Positions 2,659-54,477 of a stretch of 64,000 nucleotides of DNA are shown piece by piece. The notes under the pieces were generated by a model, which searched no databases, was not told the origin of the DNA, and worked only from the letters and a program-made list of their open reading frames with translations. The translations under genes and the position numbers were made by a program. Within the stretch, counting starts at the first letter, position 1; each line of letters starts with the position of its first letter. The DNA is from Porticoccaceae bacterium (GTDB taxonomy: Bacteria > Pseudomonadota > Gammaproteobacteria > Pseudomonadales > Porticoccaceae), in assembly GCA_024639885.1 (NCBI GenBank), contig JAHEGD010000005.1, positions 62,001 through 126,000 on the forward strand, given 5' to 3'.

Positions 2659-3998
<1,340 letters not shown>

Positions 3999-43319: not shown

Positions 43320-44783
43320 ATGACCCCCGATCAGTTCGCCGCGCTGGCGACTCAAAACTACAACCGGATACCGGTCACCCGCTGCCTACTGGCCGACACC
43401 GAGACGCCGCTGTCGGCCTACCTCAAGCTCGCCGGCGGCGCCAACTCCTACCTGTTTGAGTCGGTGCAGGGCGGCGAGAAGTGGGGCCGCTATTCACTGA
43501 TTGGGCTGGCCACCTCGACGGTGCTGCGGATCAGCGGCGACCACCTCAATATTGTCCGCGACGGCAAACCGCTGGTCAGCCGCACCACCGCCGACCCGCT
43601 CGGCGAAGTCGAACGTTTTCGGCGGCTGTTCCGAATGCCCGACCTGCCCGACCTGCCGCGCTTTACCGGCGGCTTGGTCGGCTATTTTGGCTACGACACG
43701 GTGCGCTTTGTCGAGCCGCGGCTGGCCGCCAGCGCCCCGCAGGACGATCTCGATAACCCCGATATTCTGCTGATGGCCTCGGACGAGGTGGCGGTGTTTG
43801 ACAACCTCGCCGGTACCCTCACGCTGATTGTTCACGTCGACGCCCGCGAGCCAGAGGCGTGGCAGCGCGCCCAACAGCGGCTCGACCAGATCGAAGCGAT
43901 GCTGGCGGTGCCACTGCCGGCGCAGAGCCAGTTAACGCTCAACCCAGAGCCGATCGACCAGCGTTTTCACTCCAGCTTTGGCGAGCAGCCGTTCAAAGCC
44001 GCCGTCGATAAAATTAAACAGTATGTGATGGCCGGCGATGTAATGCAGGTGGTGCCCTCGCAGCGACTCAGTGCACCGTTTAGCGGCGCGCCGGTCGATC
44101 TCTACCGCGCCCTGCGCCACACCAACCCATCGCCCTATATGTACTACCTCAACCTTGGCGATCACCACATTGTCGGCTCTAGCCCCGAAGTGTTGGCCCG
44201 CCTGGAAGACGGTGAAGTGACCGTGCGGCCGATAGCCGGCACCCGCCGCCGCGGCCACAGCGAGGCCGAAGACCAAGCGCTAGAGGCCGAGATGCTGGCC
44301 GACCCCAAAGAGATCGCCGAGCACCTGATGTTGATCGACCTCGGCCGCAACGACGTCGGCCGTATCAGCGAGACCGGCAGCGTTAAAGTGACCGAGCAGA
44401 TGGTAGTCGAACGCTACTCCCACGTGATGCATATCACCAGCAATGTGGTCGGCACCGCCGCCCCCGGCGTCGGCCCGATGGAGACCCTGCGCGCGACCCT
44501 GCCGGCCGGTACACTCAGTGGCGCACCGAAGATACGCGCCATGCAGATCATTGACGAAGTCGAGCCAGTTAAACGCGGCATCTACGGTGGTGCAGTCGGC
44601 TACATCGGCTGGAACGGCACCATGGACACCGCTATCGCCATCCGCACCGCCGTCATTAAAAACAACACGCTCTATGTGCAAGCCGGCGCCGGTGTGGTCG
44701 CCGACTCCGACCCCGAGCTGGAGTGGAAAGAGACCATGAACAAGGCGCGCGCGGTCATGCGCGCCGCCGCGATGGTCGAGTAG
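43320..44783 (+). CDS. trpE: Anthranilate synthase component I
   Basis: Converts chorismate to anthranilate with ammonia from TrpG. The 487-residue protein has the N-terminal tryptophan-binding region [18 protein letters not shown], then [43 protein letters not shown] and [14 protein letters not shown]. TrpG lies 6.2 kb downstream, beyond the accessory segment, as in Pseudomonas, where the two subunit genes are also separated. Confidence 0.97.
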
Positions 44784-44796
44784 TTAGCCGCCACTA

Positions 44797-45351
44797 ATGA
44801 CCGCCTGTGGGCTCATCTTTTATATCACCGGTGCCGGCGGCGACCATCGCAACGGGCTTGGCGCACATCTGGCCAGCCTCAATTTTGCCTATGGCGGGTT
44901 GTCGCTCTCCGCTGGCTTTGTGCGCCATTCGTTTGATCAAAAGTTGGCCATCATCCGCAGTGCCATAGAACAGATCGACCGCCCTGAAGCGGCGATCATC
45001 GCCAATTCAATGGGCGCTTATTACCTACTGCACAGTTTTATCGACCGCCAGCCATTCAGTGGCCGCGTGTTACTGTTGTCGCCGGTGCTTGGTGCCGCCA
45101 GCCACGGCTTTAACTACTCGCGCCCACCGATGGCCGCTAACTTTGCCAATGCGCTACAAAAACGGCGGTTGCCCAAACCGGCACGGTTAGAGATCGCCAC
45201 GGGTATGGCCGACACCAGCTGCGATTACTGCCAAGCCGAACAGGTCGCAGCGGCACTCGCCGCCGATCAGTTAACCCTGGTCGAAGGCCAAGGGCACACT
45301 CTTGATCACACCACTGTGCGGCAACTGGTCGAGCGGTTTTTGCACCGCTAA
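44797..45351 (+). CDS. Small alpha/beta-fold hydrolase (YqiA/UPF0227-like)
   Basis: A 184-residue protein with a minimal alpha/beta hydrolase fold. The nucleophile elbow is IANSMGAYY (Ser after Asn, as in YqiA/YcfP-type esterases), the acid is probably in ATGMADTSCDY and the histidine in GQGHTLDH. No signal peptide is present. It starts 13 bases after trpE. Base composition is less GC-rich than trpE but higher than the following helicase, so it may or may not belong to the accessory segment. The substrate is unknown. Confidence 0.7.
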   Translation: MTACGLIFYITGAGGDHRNGLGAHLASLNFAYGGLSLSAGFVRHSFDQKLAIIRSAIEQIDRPEAAIIANSMGAYYLLHSFIDRQPFSGRVLLLSPVLGAASHGFNYSRPPMAANFANALQKRRLPKPARLEIATGMADTSCDYCQAEQVAAALAADQLTLVEGQGHTLDHTTVRQLVERFLHR

Positions 45352-45429
45352 CGGCTCGTATAGCCTGTTGTTAGCAGGGCAGTAAAAGCAATTTTTGGGC
45401 GGCGTCGAGCGCGTCTGGCTGGTAGCAAA

Positions 45430-45473
45430 ATTCGCTTATTGTGTTGTACGATAATTCGCTTATTGTGCTTAAA
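45430..45473 (+). repeat. 44-bp repeat, copy 1
   Basis: Contains the 14-mer ATTCGCTTATTGTG twice, starting at 45430 and 45454 (24-base step), joined by TTGTACGATA. A second copy starts at 45541 with three differences over 44 positions. Confidence 0.85.
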
Positions 45474-45540
45474 AGGTAGAGTTTACGATCCGTATTAGGC
45501 CGTTTTTCCCGTATCCACGAGCGTTGAGACTGTATGCAAG

Positions 45541-45584
45541 ATTCGCTTGTTGTGTTGTACGATAATTCGCTTATGGTGTTTAAA
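45541..45584 (+). repeat. 44-bp repeat, copy 2
   Basis: Same layout as copy 1, 111 bases downstream: ATTCGCTTGTTGTG at 45541 and ATTCGCTTATGGTG at 45565, again 24 bases apart and joined by TTGTACGATA. The regular arrangement suggests binding sites or a duplication. Confidence 0.85.
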
Positions 45585-45745
45585 GCCTTTCAGTCGTAAC
45601 TCTCTCAGGGCTTCCCAATCTTCTTATGAGCTTGAGGAGCGCTGATATATCGCGGTGTTATTCGCAAAGTGTGCAAAATAGAGTTAGGGTCTAGTGACCA
45701 CAGGTTTCGTGGCGGGATAGTACGGTAGGTGAGACAAGGGACGCC

Positions 45746-48700
45746 ATGCAGACAACAGGGATTTACGAGCAGTTAATCACCAAATTGCTAGAGCAAGAAC
45801 TGGACCAGGATCGGTTCTACATCGGTGAGCGCGAGCTTGATGGCAGTGAGGCGGCGACCTGGCTGTCACGATTTCTCGCGGGTCTTGTCGAGCACGCGAT
45901 GGAGTCCATTCCCACTGGTAACGACAGGCTTAATCACCAGCTTGATTTGGCAAACCAGCTGCTACTTTGGTTGACTACTAAGGTTAAAGATAAAGGCTTC
46001 ATTGAAGAGAATTTGCTGAGTAGTCAGGGAAAAATATTGACGGCACTTTACGAACTAGAGAACCCTGTTGCCGCCGATATGAAGACCTATGTGGAGGAGA
46101 TTTTTCCGCTGACAGGCCTGACCCAAAGCGAGCTTTTTTGCGGGAGTAATGCAGGTTTGTCACTAGAGGCTGAGTTAAAGCGCGAAATACTCTCCGCCGA
46201 CAAAATTTATTGGCTTGTATCGTTTGTAAAGTGGACAGGCATTCGGATTTTTAGGCGAGAGCTAGAGTCTTTCGCTGCTAGCGGCAGGGAGCTGAAGGTA
46301 ATTACCACCTCCTATATGGGGGCGACGGATGCAAAGGCAGTCGAATATCTAGCTAGCTTGCCGAACGCCGAGGTGAGAATGAGCTACAACACTGAGCGCG
46401 AGCGACTGCACGCCAAGAGCTATCTGTTTTTCCGCGAGACAGGATTCCATACCGGTTATATCGGTTCTTCTAACTTGTCGCGCTCAGCTTTGACCAACGG
46501 GCTGGAGTGGAACCTAAAGATAACGTCCAAGGAAATACCACATATCATTGCTAAAACGTTGAGCACTTTCGAGACCTATTGGGCTTCGAAAGAGTTTGAA
46601 CAGTTTGATGGCGATCAGGGTGCTGTTGCAAAGCTGAACAGGGCGCTTAATAAAGAGCGAACTATTGGCGAGCAAGCGGCAACGTACTTTTTTGACCTTA
46701 CCCCTTTTCCACATCAGCGAGAAATGCTGGAACAATTGGCTGTCGAGCGAAAAGTATTTGATCGCTACAGAAACCTAGTAGTGGCCGCCACAGGAACCGG
46801 GAAAACCCTGATATCCGCATTTGATTTTGCCGCGTATGTTAAGTCCAATCCGGGGGCTAGATTTCTTTTCGTAGCGCACCGGGAGGAGATTCTCAAGCAG
46901 GCAAGGGCGGCCTACCGTGGCGTGCTGCGCGATAGTCATTTCGGCGAGTTGTGGGTTGGCAACCACCGACCTGAGCACTATCAGGAATTGTTCGCATCCA
47001 TCCAAACGCTTAATAACAATATTAAAGATATCAACTTAACGCCGGGCTTCTATGATTACATTGTAATAGATGAGGTTCACCATATTACAGCGCACAGCTA
47101 CCGTGCGCTGATAGACTACTTCTCGCCAAAAATACTGTTGGGTCTCACCGCCACCCCTGAGCGACACGACGCCTCCGACATTCTCGCCGATTTCGGTGGT
47201 GTAATTGCCGCAGAGCTCCGCCTGCCGGAGGCTATTAACCGACGATATTTGTCACCATTTCAGTATTTTGGCGTCGACGACGAGACAGATCTACGTACGA
47301 TTCCCTGGAGCCGAGGCCGTTATGAGATATCGCAGCTGACTAACTTGTATACGCATAACCAGGCTAGAGTTGCCAAAATAGTGATGAGTCTACGCGAGAT
47401 TGTTACTGACCTGGCGGGAATGAAAGCGTTGGCGTTCTGTGTTGGTCGGGAGCACGCGCAGTACATGGCGGATCAGTTCAATCTCCAAGGCATTAAATCC
47501 GACATACTCACCAGCGATAACAGCCAGGACCGGCAGCTCAAACAGCAGGCGATCCGTGGCGGTGACATTAATATTTTGTGTGTGGTCGACATTTTCAACG
47601 AGGGCGTAGATATCCCCGAAGTGGACACCCTGCTATTTTTACGGCCAACTGAGAGTCTGACAATTTTTCTCCAGCAGCTTGGCCGTGGTCTTCGCTTAGC
47701 TGAAGGGAAAGAGTGCTGTACGGTCTTAGATTTCGTCGGTAATTCCCGACCCGAGTATGATTTTGCCAACAAATTTAGAGCGCTGATAGGCAAGAGCTCG
47801 CGCGCGATCAGCGAAGAGATTAAGCAGGGATTCCCGCATGCACCGCTAGGTTGTCGAATCGAGTTAACCAAGCAGACCCAAGAAATGGTATTGAGTAACA
47901 TCCGGCAGGCGTCGCTAACTGTGGGCCGATTAGTGGCTATGATTAGACAGTTCCCTGCACACTCTTCGGCCCCGCTAACGCTGGAAAACTTTCTGACCCA
48001 GCACCCGCATCTAGACCTTAATGAATTGTATAAGCGTGCTAGTTGGAATGACCTGGTTGCAAAGGCGCAGCGCCAAGACGAGTCGGGCGGAGAGGTTAGT
48101 GTCGTCGCTGGTCGGATCAAGCGCGCGGTGTACAACCGCGTTCTTAGCTGTGACGATAGAGCTTACTTGCTGTTTTTGAGGCAGCTCTGCGAAGATAACT
48201 TTGTGATTCCAGCGGGGTGCGAGCGGAAGGCATTAATGTGGCACTATGATTACTGGCAAAAAACCGGTGCTAAAGCAGGCTTTACAGCCCTTGAAGAGAG
48301 CATTTCAGAGCTCTGTAACCATGGTATTAAAGAGGAGCTGACTGCCGTACTGGATTGGCAGCTCAAGGTTACAAAATATGAACAACTGCCTATCTGTAGG
48401 CTGCCCGATGTTCCGTTACTGGTCCACGCACGTTATGCGAGGGAGCAGATACTAGTGGCGTTCGGGGCCGCTAGCTTTAACGTCCAGCCGACGGCGCGTG
48501 AAGGAGTTTATATTGTTAAGGAGAAAAATATTGAGTTGCTATTTGTCACGTTAAACAAAAATGAAAAGCGGTTCTCGCCGACCACGATGTATCAAGATTA
48601 TGCGATTAGCGAGACGCTCTTCCATTGGCAATCACAGAATAGCGCCCGGCCAGACCGTGGGCGGGGCGAGACTTATGTAAAGCACAAGACTAGCGGCAAG

Positions 48701-48886
48701 CGGCTGTTTTTGTTCGTTCGCGAAGAGAGCAAAGACCGATACGGGCGCACCATGGGTTTCGTTAACTACGGCGAGGTAGAGTATGTCTCTCATGTCGGCT
48801 CGCAGCCAATGAGTATAACTTGGCGCCTCGCAACACCGATCCCCGATTTTATGTGGCAACAAGTGAGTAAGCTTGCGGTAGGCTAG
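45746..48886 (+). CDS. PLD-domain / superfamily 2 helicase / DUF3427 protein
   Basis: A 1046-residue protein. Order of parts: an N-terminal helical region (1-130); a phospholipase-D-like domain (about 135-285) with a single HKD-type motif, His222/Lys224 and Gly240-Ser-Ser-Asn243; an SF2 helicase core with Walker A ATGTGKT (348-354), DEVHH (442-446), LTATPERHD (467-475), NEGVDIPEV (618-626) and QQLGRGLR (643-650); and a C-terminal DUF3427 region (about 915-1040) with RFSPTTMYQDYAIS. This layout is known for DUF3427 helicases that occur sporadically on islands; roles in DNA repair or phage defence are suspected but unproven. Codon use and base composition are unlike the core genes, indicating transfer. 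Confidence 0.9.
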   Translation: MQTTGIYEQLITKLLEQELDQDRFYIGERELDGSEAATWLSRFLAGLVEHAMESIPTGNDRLNHQLDLANQLLLWLTTKVKDKGFIEENLLSSQGKILTALYELENPVAADMKTYVEEIFPLTGLTQSELFCGSNAGLSLEAELKREILSADKIYWLVSFVKWTGIRIFRRELESFAASGRELKVITTSYMGATDAKAVEYLASLPNAEVRMSYNTERERLHAKSYLFFRETGFHTGYIGSSNLSRSALTNGLEWNLKITSKEIPHIIAKTLSTFETYWASKEFEQFDGDQGAVAKLNRALNKERTIGEQAATYFFDLTPFPHQREMLEQLAVERKVFDRYRNLVVAATGTGKTLISAFDFAAYVKSNPGARFLFVAHREEILKQARAAYRGVLRDSHFGELWVGNHRPEHYQELFASIQTLNNNIKDINLTPGFYDYIVIDEVHHITAHSYRALIDYFSPKILLGLTATPERHDASDILADFGGVIAAELRLPEAINRRYLSPFQYFGVDDETDLRTIPWSRGRYEISQLTNLYTHNQARVAKIVMSLREIVTDLAGMKALAFCVGREHAQYMADQFNLQGIKSDILTSDNSQDRQLKQQAIRGGDINILCVVDIFNEGVDIPEVDTLLFLRPTESLTIFLQQLGRGLRLAEGKECCTVLDFVGNSRPEYDFANKFRALIGKSSRAISEEIKQGFPHAPLGCRIELTKQTQEMVLSNIRQASLTVGRLVAMIRQFPAHSSAPLTLENFLTQHPHLDLNELYKRASWNDLVAKAQRQDESGGEVSVVAGRIKRAVYNRVLSCDDRAYLLFLRQLCEDNFVIPAGCERKALMWHYDYWQKTGAKAGFTALEESISELCNHGIKEELTAVLDWQLKVTKYEQLPICRLPDVPLLVHARYAREQILVAFGAASFNVQPTAREGVYIVKEKNIELLFVTLNKNEKRFSPTTMYQDYAISETLFHWQSQNSARPDRGRGETYVKHKTSGKRLFLFVREESKDRYGRTMGFVNYGEVEYVSHVGSQPMSITWRLATPIPDFMWQQVSKLAVG

Positions 48887-48933
48887 AGTGTGTAATGTAT
48901 TGGCGGCGGCTCGATGACTGCAAAGGACAGCAC

Positions 48934-49740
48934 ATGACTCGATCAACAGCTACTCTCCTAGTGCTATTGATACTGTTCAGCTGGGCGGGGCTCGACGCCA
49001 ACCGTTTTCGCGTCGACAGCGTGACGCTGTCCGACCTCATTGCGCCAGTAGCGCCTGCGCTTGCCGGCTACCGTATCGTGGTAGTGAGCGACCCACACCT
49101 GACCGGCAGTGAGAGTAGCTGGGCAGATTGGCGCAAGGTTCTAAACAGCGTCAACGCCGAGCAGCCAGACTTTGTCTTCATCCTTGGCGATTTTACCTAC
49201 CACGAGCTGAGCGGCGCGGCACTGGCCGGCTTTCAAGCGCGCTTCGCCGCGTCGTTGGCTGTGCTAGAGCGCGCGCCTTATCTGGTGCTGGGTAACCATG
49301 AAACCTGGGGCGGCAGGGCAGGCTGGCAAGCGGCATTGGTCGGCGCGGGTGTAACAGTGCTAGAGAACCGCGCGGTAGCCACGTTAGTACCCAAGCCACT
49401 CTGTATCGTTGGTATCGGCGACGCCTACACCGGCCACGCCCAACAGCCGATAGCCAACCCGAGCTGTAGCGGCCTGCCGGTGATACATATTACCCACGAC
49501 CCCGCTGCAATGTTTGACTTGGCGCTGCCGGGGGTTTGGCTGGCAGGCCACACCCACTGCGGCCAAATTAAACTGCCGTGGCTGCCGCCGCTGGTGGCCC
49601 CAACCAGTGCCCCCAAACGCGCCCAATGCGGTGTCTACACAGCACCAGGGCAGTTGCTGTTTGTCTCTAGCGGGGTTGGTAACAGTATCCTGCCGCTGCG
49701 CTTCTTCGCCGGCAGTCAGGTGGAGCTATTGACTTTTTAG
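48934..49740 (+). CDS. Calcineurin-like metallophosphoesterase, membrane-anchored
   Basis: A 268-residue protein. An N-terminal hydrophobic segment (residues 5-20) probably anchors it, with the enzyme outside the cytoplasm. Metal-binding motifs in order: VVSDPHLTG, FILGDFTYHE, LGNHETWGG, ITHDPAA and GHTHCGQIKLPW. The last motif, GHTHxGQ, groups it with YkuE/UDP-2,3-diacylglucosamine-hydrolase-like enzymes. I use the ATG at 48934, which follows AAAGGA; a frame from 48895 is weaker. It is 47 bases after the helicase and richer in GC than it, so a shared origin is uncertain. Confidence 0.85.
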   Translation: MTRSTATLLVLLILFSWAGLDANRFRVDSVTLSDLIAPVAPALAGYRIVVVSDPHLTGSESSWADWRKVLNSVNAEQPDFVFILGDFTYHELSGAALAGFQARFAASLAVLERAPYLVLGNHETWGGRAGWQAALVGAGVTVLENRAVATLVPKPLCIVGIGDAYTGHAQQPIANPSCSGLPVIHITHDPAAMFDLALPGVWLAGHTHCGQIKLPWLPPLVAPTSAPKRAQCGVYTAPGQLLFVSSGVGNSILPLRFFAGSQVELLTF

Positions 49741-49796
49741 GGGGGCATCACAGCGGTCGGTTGTCGGCTAGAGATTAACTAGCGAAGAACAAACAG

Positions 49797-50065
49797 GCGA
49801 CAGTCTCGTCGTTAACCGAGAGACATCTCTAATAGTTGGCGCATTAGCCACAATCGTACACTGTGTTGCACAAAGCTATGTCGCAGTGCGCCAGCGCTCA
49901 GCTAATAAGCCTAACCGACGAAAGTAAGTCGTAACGACTAGACAGGCTAATAAGGTCATCAATGCCATTGAGTTTCAGGCTTGTTATCGATATTGTGAGA
50001 ATGAATCTGAAACTTGGCCTATCCAATTAGTAGGATTCCTCCGGGGGCCGCAAGGCCCCTTTTTT
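49797..50065 (+). ncRNA. Candidate structured non-coding RNA ending at a terminator
   Basis: Five elements in series could fold: CGAC/GTCG near 49799-49812; AGAGA-CA-TCTCT (49820-49831); TGGCGCA (49837-49843) pairing with TGCGCCA (49887-49893), enclosing TAGC/GCTA; AGCCT (49908) with AGGCT (49944), enclosing CGAC/GTCG; and GCCA plus AGTTTCAG (49964-49978) pairing with CTGAAACT plus TGGC (50007-50018). A strong terminator closes the series at 50044-50065. No promoter is obvious and the 5' end is a guess. It could instead be a long 3' untranslated region. No known RNA family was recognised. Confidence 0.35.
50044..50065 (+). terminator. Rho-independent terminator
   Basis: GGGGCC-GCAA-GGCCCC with six T residues. 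It ends plus-strand transcription 12 bases before the stop codon of the convergent DUF3800 gene, 304 bases after the metallophosphoesterase stop. Confidence 0.92.
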
Positions 50066-50076
50066 GTTATCTGGCG

Positions 50077-50838
50077 TTACAGCCTTACGATTCCTAGTGG
50101 ATCGCTGCTTGATGCGGAAGAGCACAGCACTGGCCGTAAGTTTTTAAAGTAATTGCGAGCGCTTTTTTTCCTGACATAGGAGCATGGCGTAAGCATTTGA
50201 CAGAGTGAGTAGGCGGCGACATCGGCCGCTTGTATGAAAAGAGACTTTCGTGAATCCTTGAAGTGTGGATCTTCAATAATGTTAATTGTCTCGAGTCGTC
50301 TGTAGCCATCAGACTGCTGATTGGGTACAGGGTTGTATCTTCGCATGCGTCTAGCCAATGCTGTAATTTTTGCTGTATCCGATTGATCCGGAATAACGAT
50401 GCCGCTCTCGCTAAGGGATGATGAACCGTTGAAGTTGCCGTGAAGCATGGTGTTTGAAAACCGTTGTAGCAGTGCGGTCCAGGCCCGGCCAACAACGTCG
50501 TAACTATCAGGTTTTCCCTCTTTGTTTACGACGATATTAATAATGCTAATGCCCTCTAGCGATGCTATCTCTCTGGTGAATAGCCTAAGAATTGTCAGCC
50601 TATCGTTGCGTTTTATCCGTTTTAGTGCCCCGGGCTTGGAAATCATTGCAGAGGCGTGAATCTCTTCACGCAGCCGCATACCGAATGTGCCTAGCATCTT
50701 TTTTCGAAATAGCAGAATGGCATCTTGGCAATTCCGCCAGTGGTCTTCGTGCACTACTAGTCCGGTTAAAATGAAATATTGTGATGGGCTATGGCGTAGC
50801 CCGGGATCGCCGCTTTCATCGACGTACATCAAGAACAT
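50077..50838 (-). CDS. DUF3800 domain protein
   Basis: A 253-residue protein of a family with a predicted RNase H-like fold and sporadic, island-linked distribution. The N-terminal [10 protein letters not shown] carries the first acidic residues, and the C-terminal [16 protein letters not shown] is the second conserved segment (usually IQxADxxA). The function is unknown. I choose the ATG at 50838, preceded by AGAGGA; a longer frame to 50997 would span the trpG promoter. A TATATT at 50876-50871 could be its -10. It is AT-richer than its neighbours and transcribed against the rest of the region. Confidence 0.85.
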
Positions 50839-50946
50839 GGGTAATCCTCTTTGATCGTTATTGTCAGTTGAATATAGCTGAGAAATGCCAAAGTGCACGG
50901 TGGTCGGCCAGTCGTTGGTGGCTGGTTTTGCTACGCTCGCCGCCCG

Positions 50947-50975
50947 TTTATACCCGCCCGCTTCTAGGGCATAAT
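50947..50975 (+). promoter_or_regulatory. Probable trpGDC promoter
   Basis: -35 TTTATA (50947-50952, 4 of 6), 17-base spacer, -10 CATAAT (50970-50975, 5 of 6). Transcription would begin about 36 bases before trpG. This marks the right edge of the accessory segment. Confidence 0.6.
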
Positions 50976-51017
50976 GGCGCGCTGATATTACTGGCACTCT
51001 GCCGTGCGGGCCCTTAC

Positions 51018-51599
51018 ATGCTGTTGATGATCGACAACTACGACTCCTTTACCTACAACGTGGTGCAGTACCTGGCCGAGCTGGGTGCCGATGTGCGGGT
51101 GTTTCGCAACGACGAGATCACCGTTGAGGAGATCCGCGCACTGGCACCGGAGCGGCTGGTGATATCGCCGGGCCCGTGCGATCCCGATCAGGCCGGTGTG
51201 TCGATGGCGGCGATTGAGGCGTTTGCCGGGGTGATCCCGGTGTTGGGCATCTGCTTGGGCCACCAGAGTATTGGCCAGGTTTACGGTGGCGAGGTGGTGC
51301 GCGCCCGCCAGGTGATGCACGGCAAGGTGTCGCCGATCTACCACACCGGCGAGGGGGTGTTCGCCGGCCTGCCCAACCCGTTTAGCGCCACCCGCTACCA
51401 CTCGTTGGTGGTGGCCCGGCAGTCGCTGCCGGCGACGCTAGCGGTGACCGCGTGGACGCAGTGCGATGATGGCAGTGTTGACGAGATTATGGGCCTTAAA
51501 CACAGCCAGTTGGCGGTCGAGGGGGTGCAGTTTCACCCTGAGTCGATTCTCTCTGAGCACGGCCACGCGCTGCTGCAAAACTTTTTAAAGCAAGGTTAG
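51018..51599 (+). CDS. trpG: Anthranilate synthase component II (glutamine amidotransferase)
   Basis: Supplies ammonia to TrpE; in many bacteria also to PabB. The 193-residue class I amidotransferase begins [18 protein letters not shown], with the nucleophile Cys in [13 protein letters not shown] and the His/Glu pair in [13 protein letters not shown]. The ATG at 51018 is used, since the frame upstream is in the promoter. It is the first gene of trpG-trpD-trpC. Confidence 0.97.
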
Positions 51600-53924: not shown

Positions 53925-53957
53925 CGCCTGGGCGGTGTGAGCAGTGCTTGTGCGGCC

Positions 53958-53995
53958 AAAAAAAGAATAAAAAAAAGGAGCCGGGGAGGCTCCTT
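53958..53995 (-). terminator. Rho-independent terminator of the 46-codon gene
   Basis: On the minus strand AAGGAGCC-loop-GGCTCCTT forms a perfect 8-bp stem followed by eight or more T residues and a second T run. It has no T run on the plus strand, so it marks transcription coming from the small gene at 54135-54275. Confidence 0.82.
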
Positions 53996-54109
53996 AAAAA
54001 GTCCTTGGAAGGATCACAAGGGAGGGGTCTGGGGTCCAGCGCCGATTGCGCGTCGCTGGTGAATCTCATCAATCTGTTAAGTATATTACTGAGCTAGCCG
54101 GTATACATC

Positions 54110-54128
54110 AAATGCATTGTTTGCATTT
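54110..54128. repeat. Inverted repeat with ATGCATT-type element
   Basis: AAATGCA-TTGTT-TGCATTT, six bases past the stop of the small gene. Its inner 12-mer AATGCATTGTTT occurs again at 54403-54414. Confidence 0.6.
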
Positions 54129-54134
54129 TAGTCA

Positions 54135-54275
54135 TTACGCAGCGGTATTATTAACCGCTGCATCGTTGGCCGCTACGCGGACTGAACCGGTATGATTGGC
54201 TTTGGCCAGCTCGTCGCGGGCGATCGCTACGCCAGTCAAACCTGCAAAACTCATCATTAAGTAAACTAGTGCCAT
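54135..54275 (-). CDS. Small protein, 46 residues, with N-terminal membrane segment
   Basis: The frame reads MALVYLMMSFAGLTGVAIAR and continues DELAKANHTG to an Ala/Asn-rich end. Residues 2-19 are hydrophobic and would form one membrane helix; the rest is polar. The ATG at 54275 is preceded by a very strong AAAGGAGA seven bases away. A promoter (TTGGAA-18-TATAGT at 54404-54375) lies upstream and a terminator downstream (53995), so it has all parts of a gene. I recognise no family. It is divergent from a LysR regulator and is probably its target. Confidence 0.62.
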   Translation of the reverse strand: MALVYLMMSFAGLTGVAIARDELAKANHTGSVRVAANDAAVNNTAA

Positions 54276-54369
54276 GGTTGCTCTCCTTTCAAAGTGAGCT
54301 GATGTTCCGCGGCGTTTTACGTTAACGTCTTGGTTCAGCTCTTGGCGCTTTATTGCGCTGTTTCAATGG

Positions 54370-54404
54370 TTGTTACTATAAGAACTGGTCCTCTATAATT
54401 CCAA
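54370..54404. promoter_or_regulatory. Overlapping divergent promoters of the small gene and lysR gene
   Basis: Plus strand: TTGTTA (54370-54375), 18 bases, perfect TATAAT (54394-54399) for the regulator. Minus strand: TTGGAA (54404-54399), 18 bases, TATAGT (54380-54375) for the small gene. The two overlap completely, so they exclude one another, as in classic LysR divergons. Confidence 0.6.
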
Positions 54405-54448
54405 TGCATTGTTTTAATATTTCCTATGCATTATTGGTATGCAATAAT
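54403..54448. promoter_or_regulatory. Candidate LysR-type operator
   Basis: AATGCATTGTTT (54403-54414) is followed by TATGCATTATT and a perfect inverted repeat ATTATTG-GTATG-CAATAAT (54430-54448), which contains the T-N11-A pattern typical of LysR-family sites. It overlaps the -35 of the small gene and the start of the regulator transcript. Confidence 0.5.
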
Positions 54449-54477
54449 GGCGGCGTATTTAACGCTTGGAGAACGGT

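Follow-up and report, generated by a model that had tools for sequence, protein, structure and literature searches.

A DUF3800 gene and a convergent small RNA form a recurring two-part cassette, and copies of the RNA stand alone in viral contigs

The DNA analyzed here, called the window, is a stretch of 64,000 nucleotides (nt) from a Porticoccaceae bacterium, and its subject is a DUF3800 gene that lies tail-to-tail with a small structured RNA in an insertion between trpE and trpG. The left edge of the insertion is trpE (43320..44783, plus strand), which is 90% identical to that of the same-genus genome G001, and the right edge is trpG (51018..51599, plus strand). Between them lie four open reading frames (ORFs), of which three encode a hydrolase-like protein, a helicase with PLD and DUF3427 domains and a metallophosphoesterase; the fourth, on the minus strand, encodes the DUF3800 protein. 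An earlier note, made from the letters of this DNA, had described positions 44784-51017 as an accessory segment. This was borne out by G001, where the site is empty: trpE and trpG are spaced by about 80 nt, none of the four segment genes was matched in the 15 kb around the junction (tblastn, E ≤ 1e-5), and similarity to the window resumes at about 50945. The unit that recurs elsewhere is the DUF3800 gene with its convergent RNA, not the whole segment.

The DUF3800 gene (50077..50838, minus strand) encodes 253 amino acids and was recognized by PF12686 with 72.6 bits (cut-off 21). Its start was corrected by alignment to about 50838 instead of 50997. A structure model built from the window protein and related sequences (11-row alignment) reached a predicted local distance difference test score (pLDDT) of 86.8. 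The best solved folds for this model were those of RNases HII, H2 and H3: 1eke_B was aligned with a Z score of 10.5 over 160 residues (root-mean-square deviation 3.4, 9% identity), and Foldseek returned 2dff with an E value of 1.8e-4. A sequence search of the Protein Data Bank (PDB) with the DUF3800 protein gave no match. A ToxN-like fold was not among the fold matches listed, which excludes nothing. Five residues (D7, E8, D151, D190 and D206) are invariant in the 11-row alignment and could form the active site. As in RNase HII, an Asp-Glu pair is placed on the first strand (YVDESG, the RNase HII motif); unlike RNase HII, to which it is about 9% identical, the DUF3800 protein is genetically linked to an RNA. 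By its model, it presumably has an RNase HII-like fold and is a putative nuclease. An RNase H-type fold is also predicted for DUF3800 in a passage of PMC10910872.

The conserved RNA occupies 50003-50069 on the plus strand. Its core (50003..50038) consists of an outer helix, a GAA/AGUA internal loop and an inner hairpin, and belongs to a class common to 11 other DUF3800 loci. A putative sigma70-like promoter (TTGAGT-N17-TATTGT; 49968..49996, plus strand), the score of which was attained by 3.5% of shuffles, lies 6 nt before the first RNA base, and an intrinsic terminator with a GC hairpin and a U run (50043..50069, plus strand) leaves about 8 nt between its end and the stop codon of DUF3800. 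In an alignment of eight sequences from DUF3800-linked loci, the outer helix comprised 6 base pairs (bp) and the inner helix 5 bp, with 96.6% of cells paired and two-sided changes in 5 of the 11 pairs. The GAA strand was invariant and the opposite AGUA strand near-invariant; the loop resembles a bulged-G (loop E) module. Covariation was 0.455 as compared to 0.150 for shuffled alignments, with none of 500 shuffles reaching the observed value, and fell to 0.17 or less when the partners were slid by 1-3 columns. Since one pair is U-G in six sequences and C-G in two, the strand of the RNA is fixed. The variable letters of the core sit in paired stems or in a loop of about 5 nt, and a guide RNA reading was rejected, as there is no variable unpaired segment.

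Of 12 linked copies, 10 have a -10-like TAnnnT box at a nearly fixed distance, ending 4-8 nt upstream of the RNA, and 11 have a run of at least four T within 50 nt downstream. Because of this box and T run, the linked copies are probably autonomous short transcripts. The full promoter score lay above that of 95% of shuffles in 7/12 linked copies and in 4/29 of the solitary copies described below.

The structured non-coding stretch of the earlier note was partly upheld. A real RNA is present at 50003-50069; positions 49741-49990 were rejected, as their folding does not exceed chance (z -1.49, a level matched by 15 of 200 shuffles). A 330-nt structured RNA was also rejected: the whole stretch gave a z of -3.25, yet the opposite strand gave -3.49. 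Since the opposite strand scores equally, no argument here is built on folding energy. Among 4227 Rfam families, none matched over the RNA of the window, either at gathering thresholds or at E ≤ 10, and none matched over the RNA in 14 further DUF3800 loci at E ≤ 1. Matches elsewhere in the window with E values of 0.13-10 (snoRNA models, BjrC68, psbT-asRNA and SraG) were sub-threshold and taken as chance; Acido-Lenti-1 in L042 was likewise sub-threshold and away from the RNA.

DUF3800 was matched in one of 57 relatives, G005, with 58% identity. Close relatives of the protein, 37-58% identical, were obtained from G005, five genome contigs (L038-L042) and five viral contigs (L045, L055-L058). With the window included, the RNA is convergent and directly follows the DUF3800 stop codon in 11 of 12 loci found by protein (the window, L043, L038-L042, L045 and L055-L057). 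L058, the most distant viral relative (37% identity), lacks it; there, another convergent hairpin-terminator was seen by eye after a TATATT box, past position 3577.

The RNA model R1 and the DUF3800 profile A3 were run on 398 genomes of the window's phylum. R1 matched its own copy and one other, in G379 (40.7 bits). This copy (L047), found blind by R1, lies tail-to-tail with a DUF3800 gene, and A3 exceeded 200 bits in the same 2 of the 398 genomes. Counting L047, which was found by the RNA model only, 12 of 13 close DUF3800 loci carry the RNA. The ORF just upstream of the DUF3800 gene in L047 (404-715) is presumably DUF2442-like. In the same sample, G067 encodes a distant DUF3800 at 59 bits and gave no R1 match. 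An exact pattern of the RNA occurred in the 398 genomes at the same two places only, and a reversed control gave none. Among 301 genomes from the phylum to which G453 belongs, R1 matched G453 itself only; in large scans of this kind, 15-20 candidates are scored for each genome, and copies may be overlooked. Seven carriers searched whole (G005, five genomes and one viral record) contained one RNA copy each. By record titles, the linked class spans five phyla, i.e., that of the window, Chloroflexota (to which we take Anaerolineae and Aggregatilineales to belong), Ignavibacteria, KSB1 and Planctomycetota. The cassette is about 0.9 kb in size and has two parts, the DUF3800 gene and an RNA of roughly 65 nt.

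Copies of the RNA were also found in viral contigs without the gene. The exact pattern matched 40 stretches of IMG/VR, representing 32 distinct inserts. Thirty of these 32 form an inner helix of 4 bp or more, as compared to a mean of 5.2 and a maximum of 12 over 500 rounds of shuffling. Both outer pairs, for which the pattern did not select, were kept in 28, and each of these 28 also has the inner helix. The other four (L079, L081, L083 and L108) were regarded as chance matches and excluded, since at least one of the two outer pairs is missing in them. One of the 28, L076, is the contig of L045 with its DUF3800 gene; the other 27 distinct copies are solitary, with no DUF3800 gene within 1.5 kb or elsewhere in the locus examined. 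They compare with four DUF3800-linked viral loci. PF12686 was found in none of 29 solitary whole records, and in 3/3 linked records. A second pattern gave six matches: L111 is the contig of L057, L113 and L114 add two copies for which no DUF3800 match was obtained at the locus, and L112, L115 and L116 were dropped, as the RNA model did not match them.

When 28 solitary sequences were aligned on their own, 93.0% of cells were paired and covariation was 0.465 as compared to 0.151 after shuffling (0/500). Pairs with two-sided changes numbered 7 versus 5.3 in shuffled alignments, a weak difference that 36 of 500 shuffles reach. The TAnnnT box was present in 6 and the T run in 10 of 29 solitary copies. 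Six of the 29 solitary loci had a tRNA gene within 350 nt, as compared to a mean of 1.6 for random placement (P 2e-4); the 350-nt limit was set after the distances had been seen, and the tRNA of L080 was included manually. tRNA genes adjoin the RNA in L100, L085, L090 and L080, and in L100 the RNA lies within an array of 15 tRNAs. In L088 and L105, too, the RNA borders on tRNA-like sequence, as judged by eye. At E ≤ 0.1, Rfam models matched tRNAs and, weakly, Actino-pnp elsewhere in 12 solitary loci, and nothing over the motif. When the short RNA was compared by blastn with named phages and plasmids, only partial matches with E values of 3-9 were obtained. Larger solitary regions gave either no matches or matches to 53 or 350 records; in the latter two cases, the matches listed (8 each) lay outside the RNA, mostly on tRNA genes. 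These blastn searches identified no named phage with a solitary copy.

The neighbors of the linked cassettes differ from locus to locus. In L038, a type I HsdR gene lies directly beyond the RNA (REase_I, 790 bits), and in L040 a DrmD-like helicase gene lies about 20 nt before DUF3800 (711 bits). The cassette of L041 lies between HypD and a gene of the AIR-synthase family, that of L039 has an integrase-core protein upstream, and that of L042 neighbors a gene related to topoisomerase VI B. L045 is a viral contig, and the ORF next to its cassette looks by eye like a tyrosine integrase.

More distant DUF3800 genes were found on 26 plasmid records, 18 of them enterobacterial and smaller than 13 kb. 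In a Gordonia phage, such a gene follows the immunity repressor, and in a Rhodococcus phage an integrase is no more than about 2.2 kb away from it. Further DUF3800 lineages (Rhodococcus, Gordonia phage, Streptomyces) possess convergent RNAs that likewise have two helices and precede a terminator but differ in sequence, with each such unit resting on 2-4 sequences: L062 3259-3297, L063 3263-3301, L064 3264-3302, L066 3307-3350, L067 3311-3354, and also L110, a further DUF3800 relative from a protein search with A6. R1 did not match these units, and L062 and L063 gave no Rfam match at E ≤ 1. By eye, a terminator-bearing RNA-like unit on the same strand as DUF3800 was noted on an E. coli plasmid (L061, upstream of 2449) and a Burkholderia plasmid (L069, upstream of 2501). 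SorY and Leu_leader matches just upstream of DUF3800 in L061 were sub-threshold (about 34 bits; cut-offs 111 and 50) and were set aside.

Of the remaining segment genes, the largest (45746..48886, plus strand) encodes a protein of 1046 amino acids with a PLD nuclease, a superfamily 2 (SF2) helicase and DUF3427. PLDc_2, ResIII and Helicase_C all scored above their Pfam cut-offs, DUF3427 scored 94.9 bits, and PADLOC assigned the protein to mREase_IV (731.6 bits). The SauUSI structure 7clg matched with an E value of 1.3e-82, the main block (residues 146-671) covering the nuclease and helicase parts. Like SauUSI, the window enzyme has an N-terminal PLD nuclease followed by an SF2 helicase; its putative C-terminal target-recognition part aligns only weakly, in a second block against 7clg residues 803-919 (i-E 0.013). 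SauUSI cleaves DNA bearing modified cytosine and has a target domain with SRA fold, as stated in part of PMC7913695. Judged by sequence similarity, the window protein is a SauUSI-like type IV restriction enzyme, a known kind of defense enzyme, in keeping with the defense flavor that the earlier note had sensed. It is a defense gene independent of the DUF3800-RNA cassette. No match at E ≤ 1e-60 was found in 56 of 57 relatives, G001 included; G043 alone showed a partial match (33% identical). Upstream of its gene, two direct repeats of 49 nt (45425-45473 and 45536-45584) are 92% alike, and each holds two copies of ATTCGCTTATTGTG with at most one mismatch. The window contains 4 copies of ATTCGCTTATTGTG as compared to 0.16 expected (at most two mismatches). 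The repeats are possibly operator sites.

The metallophosphoesterase gene (48895..49740, plus strand; Pfam) had no match at E ≤ 1e-30 in 37/37 relatives, and the accessory alpha/beta-hydrolase-like ORF (44797..45351, plus strand, 184 amino acids) scored 20.4 bits for Abhydrolase_6, below the Pfam cut-off of 26.3. The gene content read from the letters was thus confirmed by Pfam, except that the hydrolase stayed below its cut-off. The drop in G+C was also found as described and marks the composition as foreign: values are 0.48-0.52 over the helicase and 0.47-0.48 over the RNA and DUF3800, as compared to about 0.60-0.71 over 40-44.7 kb and 0.61-0.64 over 51-53.5 kb. The metallophosphoesterase reaches a host-like 0.62. 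No integrase was present among the four ORFs and no direct repeats flank the segment, the 49-nt repeat being internal only, as the earlier note had observed.

Among 29 trpG loci of relatives (L005-L033, 1.5 kb each), trpE was present within 1.5 kb of trpG in 23, and in 21 of these the gap was about 115 nt or less. In L009 and L018, from one genus, a gap of about 0.85-0.9 kb was noted. In L006, L016, L021, L024, L025 and L032, trpE was not found within 1.5 kb; these loci may have larger inserts or separated trp genes. In P. aeruginosa, this junction is the home of pyocin genes. Taken together, the inserted genes make up an accessory patchwork at a site of gene gain. Outside it, a further low-G+C gap (down to 0.47) was noted at 53925-54465, between an OsmC-like ORF and an ORF for a LysR-type regulator (labels by eye).

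How the two parts of the cassette might work together can be proposed tentatively. The reading that we favor, while granting it less than an even chance, is that the cassette is an RNA-regulated toxin or an abortive-infection module, in which the nuclease is held in check by the RNA, and that the solitary copies are phage decoys. The RNA would bind the DUF3800 nuclease and keep it inactive; phage infection would upset the balance between RNA and nuclease so that the nuclease acts, and phages carrying the RNA without the protein would supply a decoy, leaving the nuclease silent. Inhibition by the RNA rather than activation, and a toxic or catalytic DUF3800 protein, are both supposed here. An RNA-restrained toxin fits because a putative nuclease and a closely linked RNA occur together on chromosomes and viral contigs. 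A defense context is present in some loci: L038 and L040 adjoin restriction or DISARM-like genes, and the cassette of the window lies near the type IV enzyme. Extended to an RNA arms race in at least five phyla, between restrained DUF3800 nucleases and solitary phage RNAs and with a separate RNA class for each DUF3800 lineage, the proposal becomes doubtful. Several points weigh against an RNA-restrained toxin with phage decoys. Proximity to tRNA holds for a minority of the solitary loci (6/29), the viral records are mostly fragments, and core-letter identity is no evidence for the solitary set, because the search pattern fixes the conserved letters. Only 7/12 linked copies have a promoter score above that of 95% of shuffles. 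No defense gene was among the neighbors scanned in L039, L041 and L042. Distant DUF3800 genes (G067, nine loci and L058) lack this RNA class, and the RNA is single-copy and convergent, not a tandem repeat upstream of the toxin as in type III systems.

The main rival, which we regard as rather unlikely, holds that the RNA is a required cofactor of a DUF3800-RNA ribonucleoprotein nuclease, which solitary phage RNAs would compete for or redirect. The close pairing and the common core agree with it, and Argonaute chains follow RNases H2/H3 in the fold list with Z scores of about 6-7. RNase H folds serve in RNA-directed enzymes. Parts of PMC10910872 and PMC12669027 describe DUF3800 as accessory in some class 2 CRISPR loci. 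Yet there is no room for a guide, the loop of about 5 nt being the sole long unpaired variable stretch of the core; the variable stem letters mostly remain paired, and a cofactor by itself leaves the solitary copies unexplained. That 27 distinct solitary copies stand against four linked viral loci, with tRNA genes beside the RNA in L100, L085, L090 and L080, would suit an RNA that is primarily a phage RNA with its own job (e.g., a transcript of a tRNA region) and was captured by DUF3800 cassettes, perhaps as a sensor or self-label. We consider this unlikely, since the exact pattern occurs in the 398 bacterial genomes only in the two DUF3800 carriers and the fixed-distance box is commoner in linked copies. 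The convergent position directly downstream of the stop codon would also allow a cis-encoded antisense RNA that pairs with the 3' end of the DUF3800 mRNA and lowers its level. This is improbable: compensatory changes and the U-G/C-G pair show selection on the fold of the RNA strand, and the solitary records offer no DUF3800 mRNA to pair with. The earlier note had suggested one defense or DNA-processing module made of helicase, phosphoesterase, RNA and DUF3800, as might be supposed from their joint presence in a single insertion and the low G+C of both helicase and DUF3800. Such a system is hardly credible. The window helicase had no match at E ≤ 1e-5 in the seven other DUF3800-RNA loci tested (L038-L042, L043 and L045; L047, L055, L056 and L057 were left out), G005 has DUF3800 and no helicase match at E ≤ 1e-60, the neighbors differ, and the metallophosphoesterase departs in G+C. 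Co-occurrence of helicase and DUF3800 beyond this genome was not found in these loci.

Weinberg et al. reportedly described the DUF3800-associated RNA motifs DUF3800-I to -XI in 2017. The RNA class presented here was compared with Rfam families alone and may already be drawn in that set. As with those motifs, a small structured RNA adjoins a DUF3800 gene; unlike the DUF3800 RNA families of Rfam, this RNA has no Rfam match and also occurs alone in viral contigs. DUF3800-I and -IX are named as RF02969 and RF02968 in a passage of PMC11701678. DUF3800-linked RNAs are a kind already known, since part of PMC10910872 states that DUF3800 domains are associated with putative non-coding RNAs, without assigning them a role there. 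In a full-text literature search for DUF3800, no functional study of the family was apparent from titles and abstract openings. The Pfam name carries no function. With a promoter box, solitary viral copies and an RNA class that a blind match of its model has borne out, function becomes directly testable. If the decoy reading is true, phage tRNA regions can carry RNA counter-defense other than tRNAs.

Type III toxin-antitoxin systems usually have a tandemly repeated antitoxin RNA, which is encoded upstream of the toxin. The cassette resembles ToxIN in pairing a small RNA with a presumed nuclease, and differs from it by a single-copy, convergent, downstream RNA without tandem repeats and by a predicted RNase HII-like fold. 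Unlike the RNAs of RNA-guided nucleases, the RNA has no variable unpaired guide segment. A precedent for phage RNA decoys is the pseudo-ToxI of phage PhiTE, as reported in part of PMC3475682, and by analogy the phage copies of the RNA described here may act as decoys.

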